This document shows positions 1 to 29,592 of a stretch of 29,592 nucleotides of DNA, piece by piece. The notes beneath the pieces are model-generated. The model was not told the origin of the DNA. It searched no databases and was given only the letters and a program-made list of their open reading frames with translations. This stretch comes from Physcia stellaris. Taxonomy: Eukaryota > Ascomycota > Lecanoromycetes > Caliciales > Physciaceae. The stretch's first letter is position 1. Every line of letters starts with the position of its first letter. Both the position numbers and the translations under genes were made by a program. The stretch lies in assembly GCA_018902385.1 (NCBI GenBank), contig JABSSW010000088.1, positions 1-29,592 on the forward strand, given 5' to 3'.

Positions 1-3000
1 AATCATCGTTAATTTCAAACATGATTTTTTTTTTATTGTTGAAATGATCGATTATGACGATCAACAACGACAAAAAAAATAAAACATTGTTTTTTGCTAT
101 ATTAATATTCATATTTTTAACAAAAATTTTTCGTTAAATTTCGAATTTAAATATTCGAATAAACGATAAATAAAACAACGTTAATGATATTTGTCGCAAT
201 CGTTGTTTTTTATAATTTGTATTTTGCGATGTTTTTCGAAATATTCAAAATTGAAAACACAATTGCGAAAATTAACGAATCGTCACAAATATTTGATCGC
301 GACAATTCAAAATTTTCGCAACACGATTGTTGTCGATGTTAATTTGAAATTCGAAATATGACAAAATATTCGAAATAAAATCAAATCAACAAACGTGATA
401 TTTCGATCGCATTTGAATCGATTTGAACATTTATGAACAATTTTCGATCGTGTTCAATGATTTCAACAACAATTAAATGATGTTAAAAATGAATATCGAA
501 AATGTTTAAATACAATTAATGAATCGTGTAATCGCGAAAATTTTTTGCATTCGATTACGATATTCGAACTTTTTACAATTGACGTAATTGTAAAAAATTA
601 TATATTGTTTGACATCGAATCAAATTTATATTAAATTTAATTTGTTTTCAATCATATTTTCGATTTTTGTCAATTTTTTTGATTTTGTTTGAATATGTTT
701 CGTGTTGCAATTTTCGTTTTCGATTTTTAAAAATCGAAAAAGACGAAATAAATCGTAAAAAATATGTAAACAATAAAAAAAATTGAATAACGAATTGAAA
801 AATGATTTGAATACGAAAAATAAATTGAAAATGAAAAATGAAAAAAAAAACGAAAAAAAAAAATAATAAAAAATAAAAAATCGTTTTCGTTGCGACGATT
901 CGCACAAAAATGTTGAAATTGATGCATTTAATATTTTGAATCGAATTGATTGCAAAATATCGATTTTTTGAAAAATTGTGTATCGATTTTCTTTACAATT
1001 GAATACGTTAAATTTTAAAACGAATCATTAAATCAATATGTTTTTTTTATTTGCATTGATGATTTATTTTGATTTGATTTAATGAAAAATTGCAAATAAC
1101 GAAATTCATAAAAATATTTTTCGAAAATCGCGATTTTTCAAAAACGAAAAAAATCGCATCGTTAATTTTTGACATTTTTCAATTCATATAATTTACAATG
1201 TATGAATTTCGATTCAAAATTTATATTTACATTTTTTTTTTTTCAATATTTGCACAAACATATCAAATTTTAAATGTTTTATCGTGATTTTTTCGATGAA
1301 AATAATTGAAATCATTATGTTTTTTGATCGACACAATTCGTTATAACAATTTTTTTTAAAAAAAATGTAACAACATCGAAAACGAAATTGAATATTTGAA
1401 ATTTTATGATAAAATTGATATTGCACGATTTTTTTGATAATATCAAATTTACGTGTTTTTGTTTGCAATTGTTGTTGATTTTATGAATTTAATGAAACAA
1501 ATATGTTTTTTTATGTTGAATCGACATTGTCGAATATTGTCGAATATTGTTTTTTGATTGTGATAAAAATCGATTGCAATATTTTTTGATATTGACATGA
1601 TTAAATTTGTTATTCAATATTTCATTTCGAATCAATTTTTTTTTCAAAAAAACGTAAATTATTTTGTACGTTTTTTCGTTTATTTTTAAATCGTTGCGAA
1701 TGCGATCATTTGTTCAATAATTTACGTTCAGTTTTTTTCAAATTTTTTCACGAAAAACATTGTAAATAAACATTGTGTTCGATATTTTCGACATGTAATT
1801 CGCGCACGTACGAATACGTCAAACACGCATTTTAAAACAATTGATATATAAATTTGCAAATGATATTGTGTTTGATCGTCAAATTAAATTTTGTGTAACA
1901 ATACAATAAAATGTTTTTCGAAATTGAAATGTTAATTCATTTATTTAACGATTAAATGAAAATCGACGATTATGAAAATGATATGCAATGATATTCATGC
2001 AATTGTCAAAAAAATTAAATGAATTCGATTAAACGCGATCAATCGCGTTCGATTGAATTAATTTCAATCAAATTGTTTCAATTAATCGAATTTTCGAATT
2101 TTACGAATTTTGAAAAAAAATTCATACTGAACATTTTTCTATTTTTTTTTAAAAATACGAAAAATTTCGTATTTCGTACGATAACGTTTCGCGATCAAAT
2201 TTCGTTTCGTTGTTTGATTTATTTTTTCAAAATTCAATGTCGAATTTTTCAAATTGATTTTTTTAATTGCCAAATATTTTAGACGATCAACGCAATTCGC
2301 GATCGAATAACTTATATTATTTTTTAAAAATTTTCCAGAAATTTATTAATTTATTGATTTTCGAGCGCATTTTTTTCGTGTCAACATATTTGTCAATTAT
2401 TTTCGTAAATTTGATAAAAATCAAATTTTACGAACAAAATTAACATAAAATTTCGAACAGAAATTTCACATCGATATTAATTGCAAAAATGTCGACATTG
2501 TTTGTTCACATTCAATTTCAAACAAAATGAAATCATTTATTCGCAAATTTTCGATATCGCGATATAAAAACAGAAATTTGTATTGATTTTTCGATCACAA
2601 AAAAAAATATTGTTGTAAAAAAAAAAAAATAATCAAGATTTTCGAAATTTAAAATAATTTCAATTCAATTTTCGATGAATGTTTCGTCATTTTTTGATTA
2701 TTTCAAACGACACATTGATGTCAAATTTATTACGATTTCAATTGTTTTCAAACAAAACAACAAAAATACAAACGTCAATGCGTATCAAAAAAATTCGAAA
2801 TTTTATATTAATTTTTCGATTACGAACAAAAAAAAATTCATGTTGCAAAATTTCAAAAAAAATGATCAAAATTTTCGAAATTCAAAACAATTTTTTTATT
2901 TCGATTCGCATCGTGTTTTACGATTTCGTAATTCGTCAAATTGATATTCAATTTCGAAATTCAAATTAACAAAACATGAAACAATACGAAATTGACAAAA

Positions 3001-3110
3001 AAAATTTGAAAACTATGTACGATTTTAAAATTTTTCGTAATTTGACATTTTTTTAATAAAATTGTTGCGAAAAAATTAACGAAAAACGTGTTTTGTCGAA
3101 AACAAAAATC
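1..3110. other. AT-rich, heavily mutated DNA without recognisable gene
   Basis: No reading frame here resembles a known family. Open stretches on the plus strand (2019-2282, 2675-2969) and the Phe-rich ones on the minus strand (626-955, 1214-1468) are what T-rich and A-rich sequence with few stops produces by chance. Cytosines are almost all followed by A or G; in the first 600 bases I count two CpT, no CpC, no ApG, no GpG and about 36 CpG. One of the few CC dinucleotides in the window is at 2334-2335. The stretch is probably an old repeat mutated beyond recognition. Confidence 0.6.
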
Positions 3111-3317
3111 ATTTGTTCATTCGAATTCATGCAATTATTCGTTCGTTCATTCAAATTCATGCAATCATTCGTTTATTCAAATTCATGCAATCATTTTTTC
3201 ATTCGAATTCGTGTAATCATTCGTTCATTCGAATTCATGCAATCATTCGTTTATTCAAATTTATGCAATTTTTCGTTTGTTCATTTAAATTCATGCGATT
3301 GTTCGTTCAATTAAATT
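3111..3317. repeat. 26-bp minisatellite, array 1
   Basis: Seven units plus a partial one. The core is ATTCGTTCATTCGAATTC followed by ATGCAATC. Five units are 26 bp and two are 30 bp, the extra four bases being a duplicated GTTC/TTTG block before TTCAT. 26 is not a multiple of 3, so the array is not a protein repeat even though several frames stay open. The 3' flank (ATTATTGATTTTATTTCATG and onward to the ATCGCGTTAC motif near 3361) is the same spacer that follows arrays 2 and 3. Confidence 0.9.
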
Positions 3318-3808
3318 ATTATTGATTTTATTTCATGAATCAAAAAATTTCAGTTTAGAAATCGCGTTACATGAATAAATCAAATTTCGAAATTCGTTCG
3401 TGATTGATTTTTAAAACACACGTATATTGATATATATATATATATATCTTCGCGTCATCAAATACGTAATTGCATATTTTCAATAATTATTTCAATCGAA
3501 AACGATATCATTTTTGTTAATGAATTATCGCAATCGTCACAAATTAATTATTCGTTCGAAAAATTTCGAATTATCTAAAATATTTCTGTAAAAAACACAG
3601 AAAAAAAACATATTTTCAAACAAACAATAACAATGAATTTATTTTCACATTGAACATTTATGCAAAAAATTTCGTTCAAATTCAAATTTTAAATGCGTTC
3701 GAAATTCAATCATCGTACATGTTAACAAAGTTCAATACATTTGATTTCACGAATAATTTTTTATTTTTTCAATTTGTTTGAGCAAATTTTCGAATATCGC
3801 GAATTTCA
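3318..3808. other. Spacer copy, TA microsatellite and AT-rich DNA
   Basis: The first 55 bases or so are a diverged copy of the higher-order spacer that follows the minisatellite. A TA dinucleotide run lies at 3430-3447. The rest shows no gene, RNA or repeat that I can recognise. Confidence 0.6.
3430..3447. repeat. (TA)n microsatellite
   Basis: An uninterrupted AT/TA alternation of 18 bases, visible directly. It is the only long dinucleotide run in the window. Confidence 0.9.
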
Positions 3809-4348
3809 ATGAAAAATTTAATCGATGTATTTGCGTTCGAATCATTGAAAACAAAACGAAATAAACGTGACAAAAATGTTCAAAACTTAAAACGTATCAT
3901 AAATCAACGAAAAATTTCGAATTCGAAGAATTCAACACAAAATGAAAACAACGTATTCAAACAATATGATGACACGACAATTGAATCGTTAACAATAATT
4001 CGTATTACGCAAAAACACGTCAAAATCAAACTCAATATTAGTCGTTTTTTGATGAATTATCAATTCGAATTTTCTGAATTCAAGAAAAAAAATTTCAATG
4101 TCGAAAAATAATTCAGAGTTTTTTCAAATTCATTTATATTTGTTAAATTGTTCATCACATTTATTATCGAAAAATTGATTTTTTTTAATTCAAACGCAAA
4201 TTTTATCGATGAATTAAAATTTTCAAACGAACGAAACGTTTTTACATTCAAATTTTACGAACAAATCATTTTTTATTGTTTCAAAAACTTTGAAACGACG
4301 AAAATTCAAAACAACGTTGTCATTGACATTTATGAAAACAAAAATTAA
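3809..4348 (+). pseudogene. Decayed reading frame of unknown family
   Basis: One frame stays open from an ATG at 3809 to a TAA at 4346-4348, broken by a single TAA at 4109-4111, giving about 180 codons. The first half is Lys/Asn/Arg rich with hydrophilic character; the second half has more Phe and Ile. I recognise no domain, catalytic motif, signal peptide or membrane segment. It sits between minisatellite array 1 and the higher-order block of arrays 2-4. Open frames of this size may occur by chance here because TAG is rare. It could be a fragment of a transposon protein or not coding at all. Confidence 0.2.
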
Positions 4349-4409
4349 AATTCGATCAAAAAAATCATCATCGAACAATATTTTTTGAAAAATTACAAAA
4401 TTTATAATT

Positions 4410-4596
4410 TGAATTTATGCAATTATTCGTTCAATTGAATTCATGTAATCATTCGTTCAATTGAATTTATGCAATCATTCGTTTATTCGAATTCATGCAA
4501 TCATTCGTTTATTCGAATTTATGCAATCATTTGTTCAATTGAATTCATGCAATCATTCGTTCAATTGAATTCATGCAATCATTCGTTCAATTGAAT
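4410..4596. repeat. 26-bp minisatellite, array 2
   Basis: Seven near-identical units, consensus ATTCGTTCAATTGAATTC plus ATGCAATC. Most carry TTCAATTGAA, a 10-bp palindrome, where array 1 has TTCATTCGAA or TTTATTCAAA. All Cs in the unit are followed by A or G, so the array itself obeys the window-wide dinucleotide bias. Confidence 0.9.
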
Positions 4597-4712
4597 CATT
4601 ATTGATTTTATTTCATGAATCAAAAAGTTTCAAATTAAAAATCGCGTTACAAAAGATTCGATCAAGAAAATCATTATCGAACAATATTTTTTGAAAAATT
4701 ACAGTATTCATA

Positions 4713-4797
4713 ATTTGAATTCATTCAATTATTTTTTCAATTAAATTCATGCAATTATTTGTTCAGTTGAATTCATGCAATCATTTGTTCAATTAAA
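4713..4797. repeat. 26-bp minisatellite, array 3 (short)
   Basis: Three units of the same 26-mer, more diverged (for example ATTTTTTCAATTAAATTC), followed by the spacer that begins ATTATTGATTTTAT. Confidence 0.8.
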
Positions 4798-4912
4798 TCA
4801 TTATTGATTTTATTTTATAAATCAAGAAATTTCAAATTAAAAATCGCGTTACAAAAAATTCGATCAAAAAAATTATCATCGAACAATATTTTTTGAAAAA
4901 TTACAAAATTCA

Positions 4913-4986
4913 AAATTTGAATTCATGCAATCATTCGTTTTTTTGAATTTATGCAATTATTTGTTCATTTGAATTTATGCGTTCAT
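4913..4986. repeat. 26-bp minisatellite, array 4 (remnant)
   Basis: Two full units and a partial unit; the last is truncated at ATGCGTTCATATTG, after which repeat similarity stops. Confidence 0.75.
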
Positions 4987-6829
4987 ATTGTATTGATATG
5001 TTCGACAATTATCGTTGTCGACGAAACACATTTCGTCAATCGAAAACAAAAAATGAAAAAAATCACGAAAAAAATTAACGAAAAGCGTGTTTATTCGAAT
5101 AAAAAACTAAATTAAATTTGAAATCAAACAAAAAAATTTGATTATTAACGTGTTCGATTCGATTTAATTTATTTCATTTAACGTTCGTATCGTTTAACGT
5201 TACAAAAAATTTGTTGTTTTTTTGAAACATTTGCATCATTAACGTGTTTTAACGCATCGTAATAATTCGCAAATTCGTTATTTTGTTACAAAAACGATCA
5301 CATGTTTCAAATGTTTTAATTTTTAAAAAATATCAATCAATTCAAAATTTCATTAATATTTTTTATTTTCAATTTTCGTGTTATGACAATTTTTTTGATT
5401 CAATTTCAATGTTTTTTTGAAATTTTTGATCGTGAAATTTTTTGAATGTTTTTTTTTTTTCAAATATATTCGATGTTTGACGCGAAATTTATCGACATAT
5501 CGATTATCAACAATTTCATCAATTTTGCGAATTTGTCGACAAATGAACAATATTCAATGTTAATTCGAAATGAATAATTTGTCGATAATGATTTTTTTGT
5601 CAATTATTTTTTTTAAATTTTTGTGTGAACGTTTCGTCGAAATCGATCGAATTGCGAATTCGAATACAAATTTTGATTGATCGATTCAAATGTCAAACGA
5701 TTTTATTTTTTTCAATATCATTCATGAGTCAATTGTCAATGACGACGAAAAAAAAATTTTGTATTTCGATATTTTTCATCGAATTCAAATCGTCAATGTT
5801 ATGAAAAAAGTGAAAATCAAATGTCGCGACAGTTTTTGAACGATCGAAATTCGTATCAACAAATTGAAAAAAAAATTTAAAAAAAAAACGTGAACAAATT
5901 CGAAAAAAATATCAACGAACAATCATTGTTCAAACAAATTCGAATCACATTTTTTTCGTAATCACAATTCGTGACAACATTTCGATCGATTCGAATGATA
6001 TTGTCATAAATGTAAAAATTCAAAACTAATAAAATTAATGTGAAAAATTGTTTGATTTTATATAATAAACTAATCGCAAAAAGCGCATAATTGATTTTGA
6101 CAAAATTCAAAATCAGAATTGAATTTTGAATTTTAAACGAATATATCGCGTCGATTGTCGAAATGTTTTTTGTCAAACAATTTGATTATTACATTTTCTT
6201 TTTTTTAAATAACAAACAAATAAACAATCATATTGCGTATCATCATCAAAATTTTTCAAAACATCGTAAATTGATTTCAATTCGTGTACGATATTCGTGC
6301 TAAAAACGCGAATGTTAAAATCATTTGAATGACAATAAAATTTATTTCTTTTTCGCTTTTCGATGACAACAAACATAATCGAAAAATTTTAAATTATTTG
6401 TAAAATAATCACGTTCTCAATCAAATCGTATACGCAATTGATTGATTGAATGATAATTTATGACAACGATCGCGTGCGAATTGTCAATCAAACGATAATA
6501 AACGAAATCAAATTCAATGATAATCGTGATTAATAATGAACAATTTTTAAATCGTTTGACGACGCAATTTCGTGAAAAACATTCGAATTTGCGTCGAACA
6601 ATAATAAAAATAAACATCGAATATTTCAACAATGAAAATAATTTTCAAATTACGCATTTTCAAAATTTGACAACTATTTTAATTCAAATAATTTTTTTTT
6701 CAAATTTTCAATATTTTTTCGTTGAGCGCGTACGATGAACATTTTTGTTGACAATTAATTTAATATAACGATCGAAAAATTGAATTTTCATGCAATCAAT
6801 GTTCGAACATTCGTTCGTTCATTGTTTGT
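4987..6829. other. AT-rich DNA without recognisable gene
   Basis: Nothing I can assign. Minus-strand open stretches at 5353-5550, 5877-6176, 6173-6376 and 6417-6632 lie in different frames. A faint helicase-like resemblance in the last one is discussed among the rejected items. CpT and ApG are rare throughout, as in 1-3110. Confidence 0.5.
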
Positions 6830-7357
6830 ATGATTTTCACAAACGTTAATCAAAAAACATGCGACAATTGCATTTACATGTATCGTGTTTTCGAATGTTT
6901 TTTTAACAAATACGTTTTCGTTACAAATTTTGATTCGATAATTGAACAACACAATATTTCAATTACGTTCGATAATCGAATTGATACGCGTGTTTACGAC
7001 GATGCGATTGACAATTTATCGTCGTATTTTTTTGTGCGAATCAATCGACGAAAATTTGAAATATTATCAATTTCAACGATTTTGTTATCGTCATTATCGC
7101 AATCAATGTTTGCAATAACATCGATTGCGACGACGATTCAAACGCAATTCGATCAATCATCAAATGAAAATGAAATTTTTTTCATGAACGATGAAAACGA
7201 TTCGATGTTTTTGTCGTCAATTGTATCGTCGATCGAAATCGAAAAAAAAAATTTCGAATCAACGAGCGAAAACGAAATATTAAAATCGAATCAATTTGCA
7301 CAATCGTTCATTGTAACACAAAATTTCGAAACGATGTTTTATTTTTATTTTTCATGA
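6830..7357 (+). pseudogene. Decayed frame with N-terminal Cys cluster, unknown
   Basis: A frame open for 175 codons without a stop, one of the longest uninterrupted frames in the strongly mutated part of the window. Near residues 11-22 it has a CDNC pair followed eight residues later by another Cys, which could be half of a metal-binding site. The rest is Ser/Thr/Ile/Asn rich with an acidic Glu/Asp/Asn segment around residues 110-165. I know no family that it matches. No Gly, Pro or Trp codon is left, so an ancestral protein would have changed at many positions. Its neighbour downstream on the opposite strand is the element D integrase. It may be a decayed transposon-encoded or captured gene; an accidental frame is possible. 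Confidence 0.25.
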
Positions 7358-7978
7358 TCAAAATCATTTTTTTGATTAATTGATTGAACGTTTAAAACAA
7401 CGTCGTCGAAATGAAAAAAATGATGCACGTTTCGAACGTGTTTATGTTTAATTCGTCAAAATTAAAAAATCAATCGTTGCGTTACGACGTCAAAGAAAAA
7501 CGTTCGATCGTTCGATGTCGTGATATCGATAACGTTGAAAATTAAAAATTTCGTAAAACATGATTTTCGAAATGAAAATTGAAAAAAACGATGAATTTTT
7601 TTTGTTGAAAATTAAAAATTCGACGTTGAACGTTATTTGCTTTTATGAATCATGTTACAAAAATTTAATGTTATGAAAAACGATTTCATCGTGTTTGCGT
7701 TACAAACGACGATACGAAAAAATCAATCGATTATTTTTTGATTGCATTGATTCATGATTTATTCGTATTTCAAATCAAATTTCATAAAACGAAACAAAAA
7801 TACGAAAATTTGAATAATAAATACGATTTTTTTCATTTTTCGAAAATTTCAAAAGAAAAAAAACGACAATAACAACAACAATAATATAAAAAAAAAACAA
7901 AAAATTCGATTTTTCGCATCAAAATATTTTGTACGAATTTTACAAAATTCGACAAACATTTTTTTTAAATGATTCATA
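7358..7978. other. AT-rich DNA between unknown frame and element D
   Basis: No recognisable gene. If element D was complete, its 3' end and LTR should lie in or to the left of this stretch, because D reads towards lower coordinates. I could not find a matching LTR pair. Confidence 0.4.
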
Positions 7979-8891
7979 TTATGTTATCGTTTTCAAAACA
8001 TTCATTTTTCGAAAATGACACGTAATTTTCATTCGAATTTTTTTTTTAACATTTCGAATTTTGCGTGATTTGTCACGTTTTTTTTTCGATGTTACGATTT
8101 TTTTCGTAACGACGTCAATGATTTCAAATTGTTTTTTTGTTTTGAACAAACGTTCGCGATTGTTAAACATACGTCAATTTTTGTTCATTTTTTCATTTAC
8201 ATTGATCAATTTCATTCGATCATCATTGATAAAATATTTATTTGACGATTTTTCAAACGATTTGAACACATAAATATTTAAGATTTTATTGCGTACGATT
8301 TCGTAAAAATTATATCAATCGATTTCGAATTTTTTTGATTTTTTTGTTCGTATCAATATTTTGTCGTTTTCATGAAATTTTTTTTTTGATTTTCGCATTT
8401 CAAATTGTTTTGTTTTTTTTGATACGTTGCATGATTTTTTTGAATGCTTTTGCGCGTTCACGATTTAAAAATGAAATCGAATTTATTTTTTCGTTATAAA
8501 AATTTGAAATTAATTCATCGACATCGTTAAACAAAATCGAATTGATTTCATAAAAAAAATAAAAAAATGAAAAATCAATCGTTGTATGCGTTCGAATTCG
8601 CGTAACGAACAAAATTTGATTTAAATAAATGTTTCAATTTTTGATAAAATTTTCAATGCAATATTTGATCAACATATAATTCAAAACGTCATTGAAACGT
8701 TTCATTGTTTCGTTCGTTTTTGAATAATAAAAAATAATATTTTTATGTTTGATTTCAAGCAACGCAAATGTTTTGATCATAACAAATGTTCATAAATTGA
8801 CATTTTTATCAATGATGATTTTTTTGAAAATTTCGTAATCACGATAGATATCGTTGATTACGAAATTCGCAAAATTTCGAAAATTGTTTCA
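7979..8891 (-). pseudogene. Element D integrase, C-terminal half (Ty3/gypsy relic)
   Basis: Reading the minus strand from 8891 downwards gives the second half of a retroviral-type integrase. In order: an IYRDY motif, the second catalytic Asp (codon 8808-8810, intact), a KHKN/YY stretch, then MKRFN where the catalytic Glu is now Lys (8700-8702), the RTHTTIDFS motif typical of the end of the catalytic core (8560-8600), and a C-terminal segment with FHENDKILIRTKK and KKFEID followed by TGA at a Trp position (8280-8390). Stops at conserved Trp positions are TGA. Frames shift near 8870 and at a run of ten A in the minus strand (about 8379-8388). The N-terminal half lies at 16380-16770; element A sits between the two. 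Reverse transcriptase of the same element was not found. Family assignment is secure from motif order; the exact subfamily is not. Confidence 0.8.
8829..8867. repeat. Near-perfect palindrome beside the element A insertion
   Basis: Arms of 18 and 19 bases (AATTTCGTAATCACGATA and its complement with one extra base) around a two-base centre. It lies 25 bases left of the target duplication of element A and inside the decayed D integrase frame, close to that frame's 1-base shift. It may be chance or a scar of replication slippage. Confidence 0.7.
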
Positions 8892-8896
8892 GAAAT
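8892..8896. repeat. Target site duplication of element A, left copy (GAAAT)
   Basis: GAAAT directly precedes the TGTAA start of the 5' LTR and is repeated exactly after the 3' LTR at 16375-16379. Five bases is the usual duplication length for Ty3/gypsy integrases. Confidence 0.93.
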
Positions 8897-9093
8897 TGTA
8901 ATGAGGCGAAGTCGATCAAGCGAACGTTAGAACGCTGTGAGTCTAACTGTCGCATCTCGTGCTTATATATTCGAAATTTCACGAACTTTTTTCTGTTTCT
9001 TTAGCAATTAGTTCTACTATGTGTTTAGCATTTATCATAGCAATTAATACTATTATTCGCACATTCTAGTCACGCAATGCTTATATTTTTACA
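8897..9093 (+). repeat. Element A 5' LTR
   Basis: 197 bp, starting TGTAATGAG and ending TTTTTACA, with a 5-bp inverted repeat TGTAA/TTACA at the tips. A TATATAT stretch at 8964-8970 could be the promoter TATA element. It differs from the 3' LTR at 17 positions by my alignment, all transitions, no indels (about 91 percent identical). No classical tRNA primer-binding site starting with TGG follows at 9094; the site may be mutated or priming may be of another type. Confidence 0.95.
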
Positions 9094-9131
9094 GTTTTAA
9101 TTGTTTTACATCAAAAATTGTTCGATTAAAA

Positions 9132-18800: not shown

Positions 18801-18886
18801 AATGATATATTTATTCGCGTCAACGTCAATATTTTTGAAAAATGACAATCGCAAATGAATTTTATAAATTCGATCGTTAACATAAA

Positions 18887-19350: not shown

Positions 19351-20690
19351 AACACGATCATGTCATTGATTTAATGTCGAACAAATTTTCGTTTTTCGAA
19401 TTTTTGTACAATATGTTTCAAAAAAAATTAAGAAATTTTCAAAAATATATTCGCGAAAATTTTGCGTTAAATCGTATCAAATATTCGATTGTCGATATTG
19501 ATACGTCGATATTGTTCATTTTCAAAAAAAATGAAAATTTAAAATTTTGCGTGAATTACAAAAATTTAAATGCGATCACGATCAAAAACAAAATTTCATT
19601 ATTATGAATTGATGAAACATTGAATCGTTTAATGAACGTCGCGTATTTTATCAAATTAAATTTGAAAAACGCGTATTATCGTATAAAAATCAAAACGAAT
19701 AACGAATAAAAAATCGCATTTCGAACACGATACGATTTTTTCGAATACGTTGTCATGTTTTTCGATTTTGTCAACGCGTCGACGATTTTTCAATTTTTCA
19801 TGAACAAAATGTTTGCAAAATTGATAAACAAATTGTGCGTATTGTTTTTAAACGACATTTTGATTTATTTTCGAACGAAAAAAAAACATTGACGTTACGT
19901 AAAAACGATGTTTAAACGTTTTCGAAAATTCAATTTTTTCGTCAATTTGATCAAATGTCGATTTATGCAAAAATTCATCGAATTTTTAAATTATATCATC
20001 AATAACAAAAAAATATTCATGAACATAAAAAAAATAAATTCGATCAAATTATGATCGATTTTTGATAATTTCAAAAAATTGCAAATTTTTTTGAAATTCG
20101 CAAATTTTTATCGAAAATTCATCGTAAAATATACGAAAATGTCGCGTTCATTTTTCGAATTATTGAAAAATAACAAAAATGAAAAACAAATCGACGAATT
20201 CATTTAAAACGACGAAACAATAAAAATTTTCAAAAAATTTATTCGTATGTTCATCGAAACGTTCATGTTGATACATTTCGATTTCAATAATTGAACAATG
20301 ATTGAAATCGATATTTCAAAATTCGTTATCGCAAAAATAATTTCGCAATTGATGAAAAATTTCGATATCGAAAATCAAACGCAATAACATTTCGTCGTTT
20401 TTTATTCAAAAAAATGATATTTGTCGAAATCAAATATTCAACGCACGATCAAAAATTGTTTGTTATCGTGAAAAATTTCAAACAATGACGTCATTATTTA
20501 AAAAATTATCAATTTACGATTATCGTAATGTCGAATTATAACAATTTGAAATATTTCATGTTTATCACGTTTTTGAACAAACGACAAATCAAATGAATTT
20601 TATTGTTCAATAAATATGATTTCGAAATCAAATACAAAAATGAAAATTTCAATTCAACAAACGAATCATTTCGACGTTCAAATTACGAAA
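19351..20690 (+). pseudogene. Element B reverse transcriptase and RNase H
   Basis: One frame from about 19351: HVIDLMSNKFSFF, a YIRENFALNRI segment, LKFCVNYKNLNAITIKNK, KIAFRTRY and the polymerase motif FLND at 19845-19856. Tyr is Phe and the first Asp of YxDD is Asn; the second Asp is intact. RNase H begins near 20295 with the first Asp intact in EIDIS. Later, in shifted frames, THDQKLFVIV has Lys for the catalytic Glu, and the third Asp is Asn in VMSNYNNLKYF (about 20525-20560). Stops are mainly TGA at Trp positions, with a few TAA. The frame shifts once near 20430. Conserved order and spacing make the assignment firm despite heavy damage. Confidence 0.88.
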
Positions 20691-21170
20691 ACGAAAACGA
20701 AAACGATAACATTTGTTTGTTCATATTGCAAAACAAATTTCGAAACATCGCAATTGCGAATATCGCGTTTTCAACAAAATCGAAACAATGCGAAAAAATT
20801 TTTGATGAAAAATTTTCAAAAAAAAATTTTCAAAACGAAATTGTCGCGATATCGCAAACAATGCGTCGAAAAAAAATTGTTGAAACGTGTGACAAAAAAA
20901 ATTCGTACGAAAATTTATTTCAAAAAATTTTCAACAAAATTGAAAAATTGCAAATATTCGACAATGAATGCGTAAAACGTCGCGCGTTCATACGAAACGA
21001 CAAAAAATTTAAAAATTGAACGTTAAATTCGAACAATGTTTTACGATATTGACATGTTGTATATGTATCAAATAAAACAAATTTAAAAATCGAAATTTTG
21101 CGACGTTGTCACGACGATTTTTTTGCGAAACATTTCGAAATTGAAAAAATCGTTGATTTCATTCAACGAA
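20603..21170 (+). pseudogene. Element B linker between RNase H and integrase
   Basis: Open from 20603 to 21019 in one frame, starting with NKYDFEIKYK and FNSTNESFRRSNY, which correspond to the end of the RNase H region (the conserved 'I.Y..G..N..AD.LSRR'). The remainder is Lys/Asn rich linker. Confidence 0.6.
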
Positions 21171-22080
21171 AATTTTATTGAATATACATGCGAAAAAACA
21201 TCAAAAAATACATCAAAAAATGCGCAATATGTCAAAAAACAAAAATTCATCATTATCGTTTTTACGAAAAATTGTCGAAATTGTCGATGTCAACGAAATC
21301 ATGAAAAAAAATTATTATCGATATGATCACAAAATTTTTATCAAACAAATGACACAAAAAAATTTACGATTCAATTATGATAATAATAAATCGTTACACA
21401 AAAATGACAATTTACGTTTCGATAAAATTCATCATGAAAACGAACGAAATGTGTAATTTGTTTTTCGACGACGTTTTTTTAAAATATGAATTATCGAAAA
21501 ACATAATTTCAAATCGTGAATTTTTGTTCACAAACAATTTTTGATTAACATTGTGTTATCACGCAAAAATTAAACGTAAATTTAATATCGTTTTTTATTT
21601 ACAAACGAATGATCAAACAAAAAAACAAAATCAAATTTTTGAACATTATTTGCGATGTTTTTGTAATCACAAACAAAACAATTGAATTTCGTTATTGTTA
21701 ATAATAATTTTCGTATACAATTGTGCGAAACATGCGTTTATTGAATTAATTTCGTTTGAAATTTTGTTCGAATACATTTCAAATTTCAATTTTAAATTCG
21801 ATTTTGTTCAACAAAACATTTCGACAACGAAACAAAAATTTCAAAATTTGTTCGATAAACGAAAAAAATTACAAAAAAATTTGAAACACAATAATGAAAC
21901 GCAAACAAAATGAATCAACAAAAAAACATTCGCGAAAACATACAATGTTGAAAACAAAATTATGTTGTCGATCAAAAATTTAAAACAAATGCAATCAAAA
22001 AAAAATTGTCGAACAAATATATCGAATTTTTTGAAATTGAAAACGTTGTCGACACGCAAATTTATCGTTTAAAATTGTTA
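21171..22080 (+). pseudogene. Element B integrase
   Basis: The zinc module ends in CAIC (Cys 21221, Cys 21230). The first catalytic Asp is intact (21320-21322, in IIIDMITKF). The second is Asn (21512-21514, in ISNREF) and the Glu in NDQTKKQN is Lys (21620-21622). FVYNCAKHAF at about 21710 closes the core. A C-terminal segment up to about 22130 contains IEFFEIENVVDTQIYRL and HSIFHVFLFE, matching the region before the chromodomain. The one surviving catalytic Asp is the one whose codon is preceded by C. Stops are largely TGA. Confidence 0.87.
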
Positions 22081-22164
22081 TTCAAATAACGCATTCATTC
22101 AATATTTCACGTGTTTTTATTCGAAAAATATTATATCAACGAATTCACAAAATCGTTTGCGAAA

Positions 22165-22335
22165 ATAATTTTGATAAACGATCACGAAAAATGAAAAATA
22201 AAAAAAAATTCGACGTGAAAAAAAAATGTTTCGATATTTAATTCGTTGAAAAAAATATTCATTATGTGATAATGAATGAATTAAAAAGAATTTGAATAAC
22301 GTCGACGAAACGTTGACGACGTTCAAACGAAAACG
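22165..22335 (+). pseudogene. Element B chromodomain remnant
   Basis: HEK-TGA-KIKK in the place of the chromodomain start, then frameshifts, then a frame with NLNNVDETLTTFKR (22290-22330), which fits the C-terminal helix. The middle strand is scrambled, so the call rests on position after the integrase and on both ends. Confidence 0.5.
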
Positions 22336-22769
22336 TGTTAAAATTCAATTGTCATTTTTTGTTTCGAAAAAAAAAACGATCGTTCAAACGAAATTTTGCG
22401 AAATCAAAATTGAAATTTTCAAAAAAAAACGACGATTTGTAACAACGAAAACGCAAAATGCGAATTTTTTTACAATAAATTGTTTCACAAATAATAAAGT
22501 CAATAAAGTTCATTTTTTTAATAATTGTATCGTTACATTGAATATGTACAAATGATTAATAAACATGTTGAAATTATCAATTAATTTTTTCATACGATGT
22601 TTTTTCAATTCGTCGTCGTTTTTGTGTTAAAAAAATCACAAACAAAAATTTGTGAATTACAATGAACATCGTTTTGAATTTTATTTTCGTTTTTATCGTA
22701 TCGATTTTTTCGATTGATTACGATTTGTTCGATTTGAATAAAAGTAATGTTCAAAAACGATTATCACGT
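22336..22769. other. Sequence between element B and the old minus-strand frame
   Basis: Plus-strand open frames continue to 22555 (basic tail, possibly the end of element B pol) and at 22662-22871. An LTR of B would be expected here; no copy of it is recognisable upstream. Confidence 0.35.
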
Positions 22770-22888
22770 TTATTCGACGTCATTTTCGTCGAAATTTATA
22801 ATTTCAACGTCAACAAAAATTTGATTTTCGTTTTTTTCATCATTCGAAAAATTCGCAAAACGTATAATTAAAAAATTTTCATTAACGC
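22770..22888 (-). pseudogene. Old minus-strand frame, C-terminal part (split by element C)
   Basis: Minus-strand frame ending in TAA at 22770-22772, about 39 codons from the element C insertion. Taking out element C and one copy of its target duplication, it continues in the same frame into the open minus strand of 29371-29592, giving about 115 codons with only two TGA. Acidic and Asn rich here; I recognise no family. It may belong to element D, which reads the same way. Confidence 0.35.
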
Positions 22889-22893
22889 GAAAC
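22889..22893. repeat. Target site duplication of element C, left copy (GAAAC)
   Basis: Five bases before the TGTAA start of the LTR. The right copy at 29366-29370 is AAAAC. The single mismatch is a G that follows C here but followed A (the LTR's last base) on the right, the context in which G is lost throughout this window. Confidence 0.8.
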
Positions 22894-23187
22894 TGTAAAA
22901 CATTCAGAATTCAAATCGACATAAAATATGATCGAATTTCGATAAAATCGAAATATGCATCATGACAACATGCAAAACAAACATCGAATTCGAAAAAATG
23001 TTGTTTGCATTTCTTTATACAACAACAAACAACAAATCGAATGATTTGCAATTGAAATTTTTTATTTTTTTATTCGTACATTTGTATATAGCGAGAAAAT
23101 AATGATTAGAATTTCTGATTTTTTAAAAATTAATTTAATTATCAATCAGAAACTATACATTTCTGATGTCATATTTCGTATTTTACA
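22894..23187 (+). repeat. Element C 5' LTR
   Basis: 294 bp, TGTAAAACATTC to CGTATTTTACA, with the same TGTAA/TTACA tips as element A. TATATA at 23085-23090 may be a promoter element. Against the 3' LTR I count 11 transitions, a 3-bp and a 2-bp indel and a slipped T run. Confidence 0.93.
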
Positions 23188-24250
23188 TTTTAATTTCTAT
23201 CATAATCATCAAATTAACATCATTCGTGTATACAGCACATCAAGTCAACAACATTTTTTTTTTTTTTTCACGAACATCAATGAATCGATTTTTGACTTTT
23301 CAGAATCAGACGTCATTTCGCAAAAATATCGAACATACATTCAACAACAAATTGTTCGATATGAAACATTACGCAATCAAATCATTTCATCAATCGTTCA
23401 AACTATTTTTTTCAAGAAAAAGTCATTTTATATCAAAGTAATGAACGACAAATCAAATTTATTCTCAAAAAACAATTTCAAAAAATGAACTCAATACGTT
23501 TGAGAAATGAAAAATCAATTCGACATGAATCAAGCGAACGAATACGTCGAAAATTCGAACAAAATCAAACTTTTTTTTGTCGTCATTTTTTTGAAGAAAA
23601 AATTTAATGTTCAATTGTTGTGAAATGTTAAAATCAAAAACAATTCAGATAAAAAGTATACATGAAAAAAATATGTTGATTTTCTCAAAAAAAACATTCA
23701 AAAAATCTTCATTAAAAAAGAAAACAATTTTCAAAAATATAGAAATTATAAACAACGAATCAATCAATCAATACGAAATTACGATGTTCATCGTATTGTT
23801 TTCGTTGCGAATTTACATTTTATCATGAAGTTTTCATTTGCAATAAAATTACAGAATTTCATCTTGAATTTCATTCAAAACAATCAGAACTTTCTTGCAA
23901 AACAAAATATCGAAAACAACAAAAATGAAATTCTGAAACGTTTCAAATGTCGAAAAAATAATGAACGCAAAAAGCAACGCAATTCAAACAAAAATAAATT
24001 TAAAAACGATTATAATAAGCGCAAAAAAAACGAAAAAATTTCGACGAAAAAAAAAACAATAATCAATTTCGATTCAACAAAAATCGAAAAAAAAAAAGCG
24101 ATAAAAAATTCAAATTTGATAATTTTAATCAAAAATTAATCAAATTCAAGAAATTATGACGTTGAATCAAGAACGAATTCAAAAATATTGTGAACAACAA
24201 TAAGTGCAAAAATTGCGATAAATCAAATTGTATTTTTAAAAATTGTAAAA
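23188..24250 (+). pseudogene. Element C gag
   Basis: A single frame runs through 23188-24139 with in-frame TGA at positions compatible with Trp. The gag domain is at about 23490-23950, containing NQANEYVENSNKIKL, a NYKQRINQSIRNYD stretch and FILNFIQNNQN, followed by a Lys/Asn-rich basic linker. In another frame, Cys 24205, Cys 24214, Cys 24229 and Cys 24244 give CX2CX4CX4C, the exact spacing of a CCHC zinc knuckle with Cys in the His position. This is the best-preserved coding part of C in dinucleotide terms. It would form the particle shell and bind RNA. Start codon uncertain; any ATG lies between the LTR end and about 23280. Confidence 0.7.
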
Positions 24251-24272
24251 ACAAAAAATCGAAAAAACATAC

Positions 24273-24818
24273 ATGAGAAATAATATTCGATTCGAAATCA
24301 AAAAAATAATCGATTTGATGATTTTCAATCAAATTGACACAACGAAAAATTCTATATTGAATGACGAAATTGATTTTAATTTTGACGAATCGTTTACAAT
24401 CGATATCGAAATCAAAAACGTCAAACGTCGTCGAAAAAAATTTCGCATGATTAAATGCAAAAAAACAATGATCAAAATAAACAAAAAATCAAACGAGAAA
24501 AACAAATTAAAATTCGAAACAATCATGAATTCAGAAACAAAAATCAATTTGATAAATAATATTTTTGTTAAACAATTCGAATTAAAATTATTCAACGTGT
24601 TTAATTGCGAAACAATGATTATCGACAATCATTTTTTCAAAATTTATGACGTTTATTTTGTGCAATTCGAAATGCAAAACGAAAACGATGTGAATCGTTT
24701 TTTCAATGATAATTTTTTAAAAACGAATTTGACATAAAACATGACGTTAAATTTGTCATGAATGCAATTATCAAACGCAAAAATAAATTGAAAAATCGAC
24801 AAAATCGAATCGTGATTA
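24273..24818 (+). pseudogene. Element C protease region
   Basis: The frame from 24273 contains METI-like sequence then MNSETKINLIN, with codons 24528-24536 reading Asn-Ser-Glu where aspartic proteases have Asp-Ser-Gly. Both changes are G to A after a purine. INLINNIFVKQFEL downstream is the usual segment after the active site. The protease would cleave Gag-Pol; the Asp to Asn change alone would inactivate it. The frame carries on into reverse transcriptase without a shift. Confidence 0.8.
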
Positions 24819-26520
24819 TTGATTGTAAAATCAATTTTTTTTATCGTAAATCGTATCGAAAAAATCGAATCAAAAAAATTAATCAACGTTGTCGTCGATG
24901 ACAAAAAACAAAATTTCGTTATATTCGTACGAATTTTTCATGACGAAAAAACGAACATGAATAACGTTCATATCGAACGACGAACACAAATTGATTCGAT
25001 TTTCGCGAAAATGAAAAATAAATCAAATATCAAAATCATCATTTTCGAAATTTTGAAAAAATTCGCTGATTTGACAAATGAAAACAAAACATACGAATTA
25101 TTTGATCATGAATCAAACGATCATGTTATTGATTTGAAATCAAACAAAAAATTTTTTTACGATTTCATTTATTCATTGTCAAAAAACGAATTCAAAATAT
25201 TACGAATTTATTTGAACAAACATTTCAAAAACGATTTCATCAAACTTTTCATTTTTTCAATCGAAACATCAATTTTGTTCGTCAAAAAAAAAAACGAAAT
25301 TTTGAAATTATGTGTGAATTACAAAAACTTGAATTTTTTGACGATTAAAAATAAATATTTTTTGTCGTTAATCGATGAAAGTTTAAATCGTTTGAACAAA
25401 ATTCGCATTTATACAAATTTTGATATGATAACAACATACAATAAATTACGTATCAAAAAAAATAATGAATGAAAAACGACGTTCAAAACACGATATGAAC
25501 ATTTTGAATATATCGTTTTGTTTTTCGATTTAATTAATGCATTCGCGACGTTTCAAAATTTCGTCAATAAAATTTTGATCGAGCGATTCGATTTCATTGT
25601 CATAATTTATTTGAATGATATAATCATATATTTCATGAACGAAAAACAACACATCGAAAACGTCAAATGAATGTTAAATCGTTTGCGAAAACACAAACTT
25701 TTCATCAATATGAAAAAATGTAAATTTTTCAAAAACAACATTGACTTTTTAAATTTCGTTGTATTTTCAAAGAAAATACAAATGCAAAAAAATAAAATCG
25801 ATGTTATACAAAAGTGATCGACATTCAAAAACGTGTCAAAAATTTTGAAATTTTTGAAATTATGCAATTTTTATAAACGATTCATCAAGCATTTTAATAA
25901 ATTGACATTATTTTTAATTTTAATGCTAAAAAAATCAACAAAATTTCATAAAAAAAAAATCAAATGAAAACGTGATTCGAACAAAAATCGAAACAAAAAT
26001 TACAACAAAAAACGATTGTCGAATGATTTTTTGATTTTCGAAATTTACGAAATTTTCAAACGTTTACGAAATGCATTTTTGAAAACATTTATTTTGCAAC
26101 ATTTCGATTCGATTAAATTCATACGTGTGAAAATCGACGTTTCGAACAAAACAATAAATGAAATTTTTTGTCAATTCGACGATCAAAATCATTGATATTC
26201 GATAATTTATTTTTTCAAAAAAATAATTTCAGCGAAATGTAATTATGAAATTCACGACAAAAAATTTTTGATCATAATTTTCGCATTCAAACAATGACGT
26301 CATTATTTCGAAAAAACGAAAAAACAAATATTCGTTTTGACGAATCATCGAAATTTCAATCGTTTCATGATCACAACGAAATTATCATTTCGACAAATAC
26401 GATAAACGCAAAAATTGTTTCGTTACAATTTCGTCATCGATTATCGTTTTGACAACAAAAATTTTGAAAACGATTTGTTTCGACGATTTGATCATATGAT
26501 CACAATTAAAAAAAAATTGA
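24819..26520 (+). pseudogene. Element C reverse transcriptase and RNase H
   Basis: Same frame as the protease. HVIDLKSNKKFFYDF (about 25120), ILFVKKKNEILKLCVNYKNLN, a YNKLRIKKNNE motif followed by TGA at a Trp position, KTRYEHFEY, and the polymerase motif YLND at 25608-25619 (first Asp lost, second kept). RNase H follows: VKIDVS near 26130 with the first Asp intact, HDKKFLIII with Lys for Glu (about 26250), and LTNHRNF with Asn for the third Asp (about 26340). Stops are TGA at Trp positions. One reading frame covers protease to the end of the RT, longer than in A or B, so indels are fewer. Confidence 0.9.
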
Positions 26521-26960
26521 AAACAATCGTCAAATTTTGACGCGTTTGTGACAATTTTTGCAATCGATTTCGAACGAATTTCAAATTTGCGTGAACGAAA
26601 TTAAAACAACGATGTTCGAATTCAATAATAAAAAAAACAAATTTGCGAATGATTTTTTTGATTTTCAAAAATGTGCATCAAACGTGATCATCGATGAATA
26701 AAAAATATTAATATTGAATAATGCAACGATTTTTCAATCGATCAACGAAATGTTTGCAAAAAAACATATTCACGAACATGATACAACATACGACGATAAA
26801 ATCATTGACAATTTCGTCGAATTAATACGTTCATTGTTAAATCAAAATTCATGCGCGATTCAAATGAAACAGAAATTAATTATTTTTGATATGTCACATT
26901 CGCATTGACAAAACGAGAAAAAAATATTGTGACACGACAATTGTTTATACGTTTCGTCAA
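26521..26960 (+). pseudogene. Element C linker between RNase H and integrase
   Basis: Frame 26714-26908 is open and contains no motif that I recognise. Position and length fit the connection domain. Confidence 0.5.
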
Positions 26961-27945
26961 GTTTGAAAAAAAATGTCATAAAAACGAATTATGACAATTT
27001 TCTCGTCGATCATTTCGAAATAAAACGTATTTTCGAACTGATACGAAAAAAAAAATTATTGATTTAATCAAAAGCGAAACAATCTCGAAAAAAACGTCGA
27101 ACACGATTCGAACATGCGAACACAAATAAAAAAATATTGCGAAACATGTGCAATTTGCAAAAAAAACAAAACATTTCGTCACAAATCATATGAAAAATTT
27201 TCGTTTTTTTTTATATCGAAATTCAAATGAATTGATTTTACAATGAATTTCGTAACAAATTTTTCAAAAAACAAAATATGAAATGAAACGACGTATAATG
27301 CAATATTCGTCGTGATAAATCGTTTGATCAAAATAACACATTATATTTTAATCACGAAAACAGTGATCGCAAAAAATTTCGTCGAAATTTTAATTCGAAA
27401 AATCATTAAATTTCATGATTTTTTCATCGTCAATAACAACAAACAAAAACTCGATTTTTATCGTTAAATATCATAACGCATTGTGTTATGTTTTGAAAAT
27501 AAAATTGAAATTATTCACGATTTATTATTCGCAAACAAATGATCAAACGAAACGACAAAACTCAATCATGAAACAATATTTCAAAATTTTTGTCAATTTC
27601 GAGCAAAACGATTGAATAAAATTATTGTCGATGATTGAATTTGTTTATAACAATAATAAGCATGCGTTCACGCAAATGTCATCGTTCGAAACGATGCAAA
27701 AATATACGTTCAAAATGTTTTTCGAAAATTTTGCAAATTTTAAAGTTAAATTTAAATTTGTTAAAAAGCATGTCGAAAAACTGATCGAACTGATGAAAAT
27801 ATTGAAAATCAATTTAGTTTACGTTCAAAAACAACAAATCAAATACAAAAATGTTAAAATCAAATTGATAAATTTCGACGTAAATAATTACGTCAACGTT
27901 AACGTCAAAAATATTCGTATCAAACGCAACAAAAAATTGAAATAA
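26961..27945 (+). pseudogene. Element C integrase
   Basis: Zinc module: YDNFLVDHFEIKRIFELI (about 26990-27045) holds the second His, and CAIC lies near 27148-27160. Core: first catalytic Asp is Asn in TMNFVTNF (27246-27248); the second is Asn in the ITTNKNSIF segment (27442-27444), after a frameshift near 27415; the Glu is Lys in NDQTKRQN (27550-27552). FVYNNNKHAF (about 27640) marks the core end, followed by the C-terminal segment to 27945. All three catalytic residues are gone, and each lost codon is preceded by A or G. Confidence 0.88.
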
Positions 27946-28340
27946 AAATTTTTCGAATCATTCAAAATATTGAATACAATAAAAAATCAAACATATCGCA
28001 TAAATATATTCAAACGTTGACGAATTCACAATGTTTTTCACGTTTCGTTGTTCGAAAAAATCATATTTAAAAAAAAAAAAAATTTCGTTAAAATTCACGT
28101 ATCAATCAAATGACATCGATATCGAAAAAAACGAAAAATTCATCAATGAAAAATATTGAATCGAAGTCATTTTAAACAACAAAATTTACAAAGAAAAAAA
28201 CAAATTTCGAACAAATTATATAATGAATCAGAACTTTATTATTTCGTTCAATGAAAAAATTACGAAAAACGCATTTGAAAATTCGTTTCAATGATCAAAC
28301 ATTTTAAAAATATGTTCAAAAATTTCATATGAAAAATTCG
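27946..28340 (+). pseudogene. Element C pol C-terminus, probable chromodomain
   Basis: HNVFHVSLFEK (about 28026-28060) is the conserved segment before chromodomains. From about 28112, IDIEKNEKFINEKY, TGA at a Trp position, IEVILNNKIYKEKNKF and TNYIMNQNFIISFNEKITKNAFEN fit the start, loop and C-terminal helix of a chromodomain. Divergent from that of element A. Moderate confidence because the aromatic residues are lost. Confidence 0.55.
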
Positions 28341-29070
28341 AAAAAAAACGATGTCAATAAATTTACGAATCGTCGACGCGTTCGACGTCAAATAAATGTA
28401 ATTTTCACGATAAAATCGTTGACAAAAAAATCAACATTTCACATTTGATTCGATGTTATTTATTGTTTAAAATTTACGACGCATGAAAAAGTTGAATCGT
28501 GTCAAAAACATTTTCAAAAATTGCTGTTCGATTTGATTGAACGTTGAATATGAATATGAAATATGATGTTGAATGCAACGATGAAAATTTCGAAATTTGA
28601 TATGTCAATTGCGATCGCGATTATTCGAATTTATTTCGTTTAACAACGTGCAATAACATATCGACTTTGATATACGAAAACAAAAAAATAAAATATGCAA
28701 AAAAAATTCGAATTCGATTTCGCTGTCAACAAATCAATTGTTAATCATCATATCGAAAATTGTGAATGTACGAAATCAAATCATCGATATTGAAAACAAC
28801 AAACAGTAAAATCATCAAATCATGTTTTTTTGAATCATTTCAAAAAATGTTTTTCAAATTTTTAACGCAAATTGATTGTGAATTGCGAAAAATATTCGAT
28901 GCGAAAATCACGATCACAATGATTTTTCAAATCAACGATTTTCGATGCGAAAATCACGACAACAATGATTTTTCAAATCATAAAATATACAAATTTAAAA
29001 ATTTTTGCTACAAAACAAATGAAAAAATTCTGATCATTTCAAGAAATTTCGATGTTAAAAAAAAAACGCA
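28341..29070 (+). other. Element C 3' region before the LTR
   Basis: Contains an open frame 28766-29101 that reads into the LTR. Within it a 45-bp unit is tandemly duplicated (about 28896-28985: the TTCGATGCGAAAATCACGA motif occurs twice, followed each time by CAATGATTTTTCAAATCA). No recognisable protein. A run of ten A followed by CGCA just before 29071 is the only candidate polypurine tract. Confidence 0.5.
28896..28985. repeat. Tandem duplication of about 45 bp in element C
   Basis: Two adjacent copies sharing TTCGATGCGAAAATCACGA and AACAATGATTTTTCAAATCA or its close variant, with small differences (ATCACA versus ACAACA). Seen directly. Confidence 0.75.
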
Positions 29071-29365
29071 TGTAAAACATTCAAAATTCAAATCGACATA
29101 AAATATGATCGAGTTTCGATAAAATCGAGATATGCATCATGACAACATGCAAGAAAACAAACATCGAATTCGAAAAAATGCTGTTTGCATTTTTTTACAA
29201 CAACAAACAACAAATCGAATGATTTGCAATTGAAATTTTTATTTTTTTTATTCGTACATTTGTATATAGCGAGAAAATAATGATTAGAATTTCTGATTTC
29301 TTAGAAATTAATCTAATTATCAATCAGAAACTATATATTTTTGATGTCACATTTCGTATTTTACA
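29071..29365 (+). repeat. Element C 3' LTR
   Basis: 295 bp, same tips as the 5' copy. It keeps more CpT/ApG than the 5' copy at several positions (GAGTTTCG, GAGATATG, GCTGTTTG, TTTCTTAGAAATT) and fewer at others, so the two copies mutated independently. Confidence 0.93.
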
Positions 29366-29370
29366 AAAAC
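29366..29370. repeat. Target site duplication of element C, right copy (AAAAC)
   Basis: Matches GAAAC at 22889-22893 except for the first base, which follows the final A of the LTR (ApG context). Confidence 0.75.
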
Positions 29371-29592
29371 GAATCGATCATAAAACGTAAAATTTTATTG
29401 ATATCGACGAGTCGAAATTTCAAACAATCGACAAATTTTCAATAAAACGATGTTGATTTGATTTTTTTGTTTTGTGAAATGTTATTGAATTTTCACAATC
29501 GCATTTTTTCAAACGCAATTGCAAATTGAACATCAAATTTGTGCGTTTGTTTTTTATTGCAATTGTCAAAATCATCAAATGTTGTTGAATTC
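29371..29592 (-). pseudogene. Old minus-strand frame, N-terminal part (split by element C)
   Basis: The minus strand is open from the window edge to the insertion site (73 codons) with two TGA and no TAA or TAG, and joins in frame to 22888-22770. It contains CNKKQTHKFDVQFAIAFEKM and a FVDCLKFRLVDINKILRF stretch, of no family known to me. It runs beyond the window. It could be gag or another part of element D, a different old element, or an accidental frame. Confidence 0.35.

Follow-up and report, generated by a model that had tools for sequence, protein, structure and literature searches.

Repeat DNA of the lichen-forming fungus Physcia stellaris has probably been mutated by a form of RIP directed at cytosines followed by a pyrimidine

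The window analysed here comprises bases 1–29,592 of a 50,558-base contig (C88) in the 43.97 Mb, 147-contig assembly of Physcia stellaris, a lichen-forming fungus of the Physciaceae (Lecanoromycetes, Caliciales). We think it very likely that the transposon-rich repeat DNA found here and elsewhere in the genome has been through successive rounds of C-to-T mutation directed at repeats, in the form of a repeat-induced point mutation (RIP) that nearly always strikes cytosines followed by a pyrimidine (CpY, i.e. CpC and CpT). The same context rule is seen in two element families as well as in the window and on both strands, 13 gene loci have been spared, and graded intermediates are present. An earlier note made from the letters of the window had proposed RIP-like mutation at CpY, and our copy alignments and the sparing of the gene loci examined agree with this.

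The composition of the window is unusual, as the earlier note had reported for the first 600 bases (about 36 CpG, two CpT and no CpC, ApG or GpG), where our recount gave 37, 2, 0, 0 and 0, plus 34 CpA and 36 TpG. Over the whole window we found two CC (positions 2270 and 2335; 547 expected from base composition, as for the other dinucleotide counts of the window; observed/expected is written o/e below) and three GG (positions 8905, 13519 and 14936; 489 expected), or five in all against 1036 predicted; the near-absence of both had been recognised, though about four had been counted and two of the four coordinates were one or two bases off. CT (210 versus 1375 expected) and AG (363 versus 1498) are also depleted, and CG (1732 versus 517), CA (2079 versus 1585) and TG (1706 versus 1299) are all above expectation, so that CpA and CpG do stay common. 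TA is low (1621 versus 3981), where CpA-type RIP would raise it. Both strands are affected, with CC depleted like GG and CT like AG. CpC has been lost along the entire window and the loss of CpT is uneven, with about half kept at 8894–16375 (CT/AG o/e 0.48, versus 0.08 to its left and 0.10 to its right).

The context rule is best seen in alignments with L039, an unmutated reverse-transcriptase element with a GC content of 0.509; 11 of the loci we fetched are mutated relatives of it. Sites next to gaps and stretches with less than 80% match (C-to-T and G-to-A changes being forgiven) were excluded from the counts, and the reverse change, T-to-C, was used to gauge background divergence. In the 11 copies C-to-T changes were found at 4349 of 4442 CpC (97.9%) and 4029 of 4643 CpT sites (86.8%), and at 321 of 4422 CpA (7.3%) and 147 of 4111 CpG sites (3.6%), with T-to-C changes at 103 of 3236 TA and 140 of 4420 TG sites (3.2% each). 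For individual copies the range is 3.5–14.6% at CpA, 0–7.2% at CpG, and 0.1–4.4% for T-to-C before a purine. CpC and CpT, and not CpA or CpG, are therefore the leading contexts in the multi-copy comparison that had been suggested for this DNA.

The cleanest of these copies, L056, has changed at 439 of 441 CpC, 454 of 465 CpT, 26 of 440 CpA and none of 408 CpG sites, equivalent to hazards of 5.4, 3.7, 0.06 and <0.007 (the last a 95% bound), and the counted sites include 919 C-to-T changes against only 2 substitutions of any other kind (CpY 893/906). Its two strands are alike, as the double-strand process proposed earlier would have it: under a slightly different edge rule, one strand has changed at 182/182 CpC, 191/196 CpT, 15/229 CpA and 0/204 CpG sites, and the other at 256/258, 260/266, 11/211 and 0/204, respectively (CpY 373/378 and 516/524). 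The low GC content of the window (0.265, versus 0.496 in the gene loci) might be taken to mean that a foreign element or contaminant brought its AT-rich composition with it, without any mutation, but L056 and L039 both belong to one assembly and almost nothing but C-to-T change separates them, nearly all of it at CpY, and further element families of this assembly follow the same rule, leaving this explanation with next to no probability. Slow spontaneous deamination of 5-methylcytosine in heterochromatin methylated at CpY, for example by a DIM-2-like enzyme, would also yield C-to-T changes and a DIM-2-like gene is present, but 919 such changes against 2 others indicate a process that is fast relative to ordinary mutation. 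The one-strand tracts of copy L069 described below, although found in only one of five copies, are likewise more readily explained by an enzymatic event than by the decay of one site after another, and we consider slow decay improbable.

Repeat-directed mutation at CpY is also evident when the part of the window at 23957–27257 is compared with the little-mutated copy L053, with C-to-T changes at 318/331 CpC, 387/414 CpT, 41/415 CpA and 20/386 CpG sites (T-to-C: TA 18/315 and TG 16/415). The L039 family and a further one, referred to here by its unmutated member L041, have no DNA match to one another and obey the same context rule. A simple index, (CC+GG+CT+AG)/(TC+GA+TT+AA), takes values of 0.001–0.007 in three mutated loci, whereas two unmutated loci score 0.89 and 0.98.

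Graded stages of mutation were found in the L041 family, for which five copies were fetched out of 40 other match rows (40 of 236 candidates scored). The fractions of CpC, CpT, CpA and CpG sites changed relative to L041 were 0.775, 0.438, 0.034 and 0.020 in L069, 0.871, 0.508, 0.034 and 0.022 in L070, 0.933, 0.757, 0.049 and 0.022 in L071, 0.914, 0.735, 0.076 and 0.028 in L072, and 0.992, 0.986, 0.119 and 0.041 in L073, and the order CpC > CpT >> CpA holds at every stage of these partly mutated copies. When the rates are expressed as hazards in 16 copies from both families, CpC exceeds CpT by a median factor of 1.9 (range 1.1–2.9), and CpA is 26–198 times slower than CpT (with CpG subtracted). 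A steady CpC/CpT ratio is what a single activity would give. We have considered whether there might instead be two enzymes, one for each context, as there are two RID-like genes in the genome and the element at 8894–16375 has lost its CpC and only about half of its CpT, but this variant of the CpY explanation seems unlikely to us given the narrow range of the ratio. In addition, a C that opens a CCC triplet has changed in fewer cases than one that opens CCA (0.929 versus 0.993 in the 11 pooled L039 relatives, and 0.816 versus 0.942 in the L041 family without the unmutated L040), as would follow if its 3' neighbour were mutated before it and a single activity then met a CpT.

One copy of the L041 family retains what look like traces of events on one strand. 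In L069, 44 consecutive CpY sites are unchanged on one strand over 295 bp where 29 of 39 have changed on the opposite strand, and in the first 500 bases the changes amount to 2/53 CpY on one strand and 51/67 on the other; no comparable long one-strand tract was found in the other four copies, in which the longest run was 5. It should be noted that on one strand L069 and L070 agree in many of their per-window counts, with L069 lacking top-strand changes in two tracts; the two copies look related by descent after mutation, and one-strand events are the alternative reading. APOBEC3G, a cytidine deaminase, acts at CpC, and an APOBEC/AID-type enzyme acting on reverse-transcribed complementary DNA (cDNA) would account for the CpC preference and for the many retroelements among the affected sequences. 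However, both strands of L056 are saturated, unlike the outcome of one-strand cDNA editing, and the changed strand in the L069 tract is the coding strand (the L041 reverse transcriptase is on the minus strand), which is the opposite of that expected from minus-strand cDNA editing. DDE_1 DNA transposons have also been mutated and, as these skip the cDNA stage, this too speaks against editing during reverse transcription, and we regard a deaminase of this type as very unlikely.

CpC and CpT depletion was not seen in genes: the 13 control loci, which are the non-overlapping ones of 30 and contain CCT chaperonin-family and methyltransferase genes, are undepleted over a sample of 51.7 kb (CC/GG o/e 0.93, CT/AG 1.07 and CG 0.91). 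Seven fetched copies of window positions 1–2000 (L002–L008) are depleted like the window itself, with L004 and L007 less so owing to their flanks (CC/GG o/e 0.15 and 0.05, CT/AG 0.35 and 0.13). L005 has no CC, GG, CT or AG at all in 5,088 bases (CA+TG 624 and CG 280), and L004 passes from saturated to partly depleted DNA at about 3250–3400, close to position 3374 where the match ends, which could mark the start of a younger insertion. Saturated loci have a GC content of 21–27%. The published account of the Physcia stellaris genome (46.57 Mb in 184 scaffolds with 43.32% GC, from a fungus with abundant apothecia) does not use the term 'repeat-induced' in the text available to us (PMC7513301). 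GC content alone (43.3% overall, about 49.6% in genes and about 26.5% in affected DNA) suggests an estimate of around a quarter of the genome affected.

A further consequence of the CpY rule is that the change of TGG to TGA should be the main route to a stop codon. Amongst the RVT_1 reverse transcriptase matches (scores for 150 of 527 candidates, with stops counted in 149 of the 150 rows), we found 249 TGA, 33 TAA and 3 TAG stops, with 10 rows free of stops, and amongst the RVT_2 matches (150 of 165 candidates scored, 137 rows counted) 401 TGA, 101 TAA and 3 TAG, with four free of stops. The ten DDE_1 rows contain 44 TGA, 3 TAA and no TAG, with TGA stops in nine and none of any kind in the tenth. 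Of the four DDE_1 loci fetched, two (L075 and L076) are depleted in CpY, one (L077) is patchy and one (L074) is normal, and both retroelements and DNA transposons have therefore been hit. In L077 (C25:434964–435467 plus flanks) the DNA is normal apart from CpY-poor patches at about 1000–1200, 1560–1950 and 2500–2700, which short tracts of early mutation or gene conversion could have left.

In affected retroelements TGA gives the appearance of a tryptophan codon. Of the 63 database proteins related to an open reading frame of the window, 62 contain no more than two proline plus glycine residues each, and P0232, P0245 and P0250 among them keep their tryptophans and have neither proline nor glycine; such proteins were perhaps called using a code in which TGA is tryptophan, and as the low-proline and -glycine proteins may come from Physcia or its close kin they are no evidence of a wider spread. 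The sole hit with an ordinary composition is P0241 (17 prolines and 9 glycines in 242 amino acids), whose source is probably an unmutated element related to that of the window.

A number of observations weigh against the explanation we favour or set limits to it. The near-absolute CpY rule of the earlier note holds in that CpC and CpT are the main contexts, and fails in that the copies of both reference families have each had some 3–15% of their CpA sites changed, which in most copies is above background. Likewise, CpG is at the background level in most copies, as would be expected were it protected, but is above it in L073 (4.1% versus 1.7%) and most of all in L049 (7.2% versus 3.7%). The CpA leak in L056 is mainly at CpApY (21/186, versus 5/254 at CpApR; Fisher p 5e-5) and in the 11 pooled L039 relatives is 0.149 for CAC, 0.093 for CAT, 0.047 for CAA and 0.033 for CAG, a bias not apparent in the L041 family (CAA 0.028, CAC 0.068, CAG 0.064 and CAT 0.093). 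Five more-diverged relatives of L053 with a higher background keep the order of contexts with a weaker contrast (CpC 0.80–0.87, CpT 0.61–0.75, CpA 0.20–0.24 and CpG 0.11–0.21), and the RVT_2 TAA stops (101/505) exceed those which TGG changes alone would give, and may come from the CpA leak plus TAG-to-TAA changes. L040 (C5:1165022–1168487) and L041 (C12:58812–62288) share 95% identity across 3.4 kb and neither is mutated, though RIP should strike such duplicates; this is unexplained by a RIP that is always efficient, and they may be recent arrivals or reflect rare RIP or a gap in the defence. Of the 133 C/T differences that separate the two, in whichever direction these arose, 79 are at CpY where half would be expected (916 of 1819 L041 C sites). 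Finally, much of what defines RIP in the broad sense was found, namely the dominance of C-to-T changes on both strands (L056 versus L039), the hitting of repeats of several families and sparing of the sampled genes, and the presence of RID/Masc1-family genes, of which there are two RID-like ones; the preference for CpA of canonical Neurospora-type RIP was not (CpA 321/4422 versus CpC 4349/4442).

The genes for cytosine methyltransferases, which the earlier note had suggested looking for, are indeed present. A PF00145 profile search of the genome returned four matches which we read as three genes, two RID-like and one DIM-2-like, labels which we base on motifs together with the relatives found. 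The gene on C3 is DIM-2-like and has DUF7893 and PCQGFS. C5:498855–499792 is an ordinary lecanoromycete RID with RID motifs, whose product is 100% identical over 306 residues to the Physcia stellaris protein P0121; it has SDAHT in place of the SPAHT of many RIDs, as is common to Heterodermia, Usnea, Alectoria, Lecanora, Teloschistes and others. C6:791557–792528 belongs to a 513-amino acid RID-like protein with SPPCQSFSPAQ and, in motif VI, MEET, which also occurs in DmtA rows (DmtA being the source name of the Aspergillus and Histoplasma rows). In a quick maximum-likelihood tree of 74 of the 94 collected rows (short unnamed pieces were left out), the C5 gene groups with one row from Heterodermia, which is also of the Physciaceae (support 100), near Usnea, Alectoria and Lecanora. 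The C6 gene, the other Heterodermia row and 12 unnamed rows make up a 14-row clade (support 100, stem 0.86) adjoining the clade which holds eurotiomycete DmtA, though in this tree, which has long branches, the fork joining the two has a Shimodaira–Hasegawa-like approximate likelihood ratio test (SH-aLRT) value of 86, below the 95 mark. Among the best 120 of 2824 hits Heterodermia is the sole named close lecanoromycete relative of the C6 gene, and the next named lecanoromycetes have 33–39% identity to it. This patchy distribution would fit an old paralogue that has been kept, or horizontal transfer.

We suggest that a C5-cytosine methyltransferase of the RID family would make the change in paired repeats before meiosis, its recognition of the +1 base having been altered such that the mutated cytosine is nearly always before a pyrimidine, with CpC at about twice the rate of CpT and CpG at or near background. 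The C6 gene is our first-choice candidate because its close relatives seem lineage-restricted, with the C5 RID and the C3 DIM-2-like gene as further candidates; counting against this, the DmtA-type C6 gene may have no part in mutation at all. The methyltransferase-like system of the earlier note is consistent with all three, and we would assign a role to any one of them only provisionally. It is possible, and we put this forward tentatively, that the Physciaceae and perhaps their relatives replaced CpA-directed RIP by a CpY mutator using a DmtA-type RID paralogue, kept or acquired, which favours CpT over CpG more than 500-fold in the cleanest target, makes TGA almost the sole nonsense codon and escapes the usual RIP indices.

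The features along the window are listed in the table below. Positions 1–2000 recur widely, with at least 70 match rows in the genome including the window itself (40 of 64 candidates scored), and the region with tandem arrays of 26-bp units and a 202-bp period spans 3107–5003. The terminal repeats of the element at 8894–16375 (8894–9094 and 16175–16375) are 92% identical, and 15 of their 17 differences are C/T at CpT; it has a reverse transcriptase match at 11464–11934 containing two TGA, and at least 28 match rows in the genome including itself (20 of 164 candidates scored). Positions 18030–21544 are 92% identical to L064, and the element at 22894–29365 has a reverse transcriptase match at 25308–25757 also containing two TGA.

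Features of the 29,592-base Physcia stellaris window
Feature	Position	Strand	Remarks
Nearly saturated CpY-mutated repeat DNA	1–8890		GC 0.238, CC/GG o/e 0.01, CT/AG o/e 0.08
26-bp tandem array within mutated repeat	3107–3317		Tandem Repeats Finder
26-bp tandem arrays and 202-bp repeat period	4409–4980		Tandem Repeats Finder
Retroelement with 201-bp direct terminal repeats, incompletely mutated	8894–16375	+	CC/GG o/e 0.01, CT/AG o/e 0.48
Nearly saturated CpY-mutated repeat DNA	16376–29592		GC 0.252, CC/GG o/e 0.00, CT/AG o/e 0.10
Reverse transcriptase remnant	19527–19997	+	Internal stops: two TGA, one TAA
Long terminal repeat (LTR)-type retroelement	22894–29365	+	Terminal repeats 22894–23187 and 29071–29365, TG...CA ends
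Part alignable to little-mutated copy L053	23957–27257		74% identity

Comparison with known systems indicates that the target rule is no standard signature of RIP, as the earlier note had supposed, insofar as the CpA preference is missing and we found no case of CpY-only repeat mutation among the titles and abstracts of the open-access literature searched, which omits many subscription papers. RIP in Neurospora crassa prefers CpA>CpT>CpG>CpC (PMC5496416); Physcia stellaris resembles it in the C-to-T changes of repeats on both strands and in having RID and DIM-2 homologues, and differs in the order CpC>CpT>>CpA>CpG. In Trichoderma reesei, where RIP has been shown experimentally, CpA is about equal to CpG and CpT is above CpC (PMC5496416), also a departure from Neurospora, but one in which CpC is not the best target nor CpG near background as here. 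CpT-rich spectra are already in print: RIPCAL found a major CpT increase beside CpA in the Neurospora Tad1 family, and a CpT-rich spectrum in Stagonospora (PMC2621366), and Amselem et al. 2015 reported CpT plus CpA signatures for Botrytis cinerea, Sclerotinia sclerotiorum and Magnaporthe oryzae (PMC4352252). These three fungi share with Physcia stellaris CpT as a main context and a RID/Masc1-type gene, but in the latter CpC is hit most and CpA mostly escapes; the term CpC is absent from the available text of that paper. The same is true of the available text of van Wyk et al. 2021, where CpT-to-TpT is dominant in alignments of LARD elements from RIP-capable control fungi (PMC7882544), which, unlike our window, also score as RIP by the CpA-based product and substrate indices.

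Basidiomycete hypermutation likewise falls outside the CpA rule, with CpG or TpCpG targeted in Microbotryum (PMC4352252) and Rhizoctonia solani AG8 (PMC4014442) and both papers naming a CpG bias, whereas CpG is the context spared in Physcia stellaris. The Rhizoctonia table nonetheless gives one change in 214 bp for CpC versus 370 bp for CpG, making CpC the top single C-to-T class per base; genes are hit too in that fungus (PMC4014442), and no RID/Masc1 gene was reported for Amselem's basidiomycetes (PMC4352252). The lichen fungus Cladonia rangiformis, like Physcia stellaris a lecanoromycete, has RIP-affected transposon compartments and homologues of RID and DIM-2, with affected DNA peaking at about 16% GC versus the 21–27% seen here, and we found no dinucleotide analysis in the portion of that account available (PMC12542154). 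CpC-to-TpT double changes have been described in Monilinia, but in what could be consulted of this and the other accounts cited here, as well as of those of Ramichloridium, PMC11969663 and PMC7296669, the combination of CpC and CpT targets with CpA spared is not described. A survey of 1,239 genomes by Badet and Croll 2025, which screened k-mers with no assumed motif, still concluded that RIP-like defences share a CpA preference (PMC12543289). We therefore claim the CpY target rule to be new only relative to the open-access literature, so far as its texts were accessible.

This has consequences for the recognition of RIP. The thresholds in use (TpA/ApT >2 and (CpA+TpG)/(ApC+GpT) <0.7; PMC7296669) place the window, at 0.42 and 1.42, on the unaffected side by both measures despite its near saturation, and counts of RIP-proficient fungi based on such indices may be too low because these are built on CpA. 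The loss of TGG to TGA imitates a genetic code in which TGA is tryptophan, and may mislead gene callers working on lichen metagenomes. With a strong rule, an unmutated copy and graded intermediates all in one genome, Physcia stellaris makes the question of what determines the target base of RIP one that is testable by the comparison of methyltransferases.

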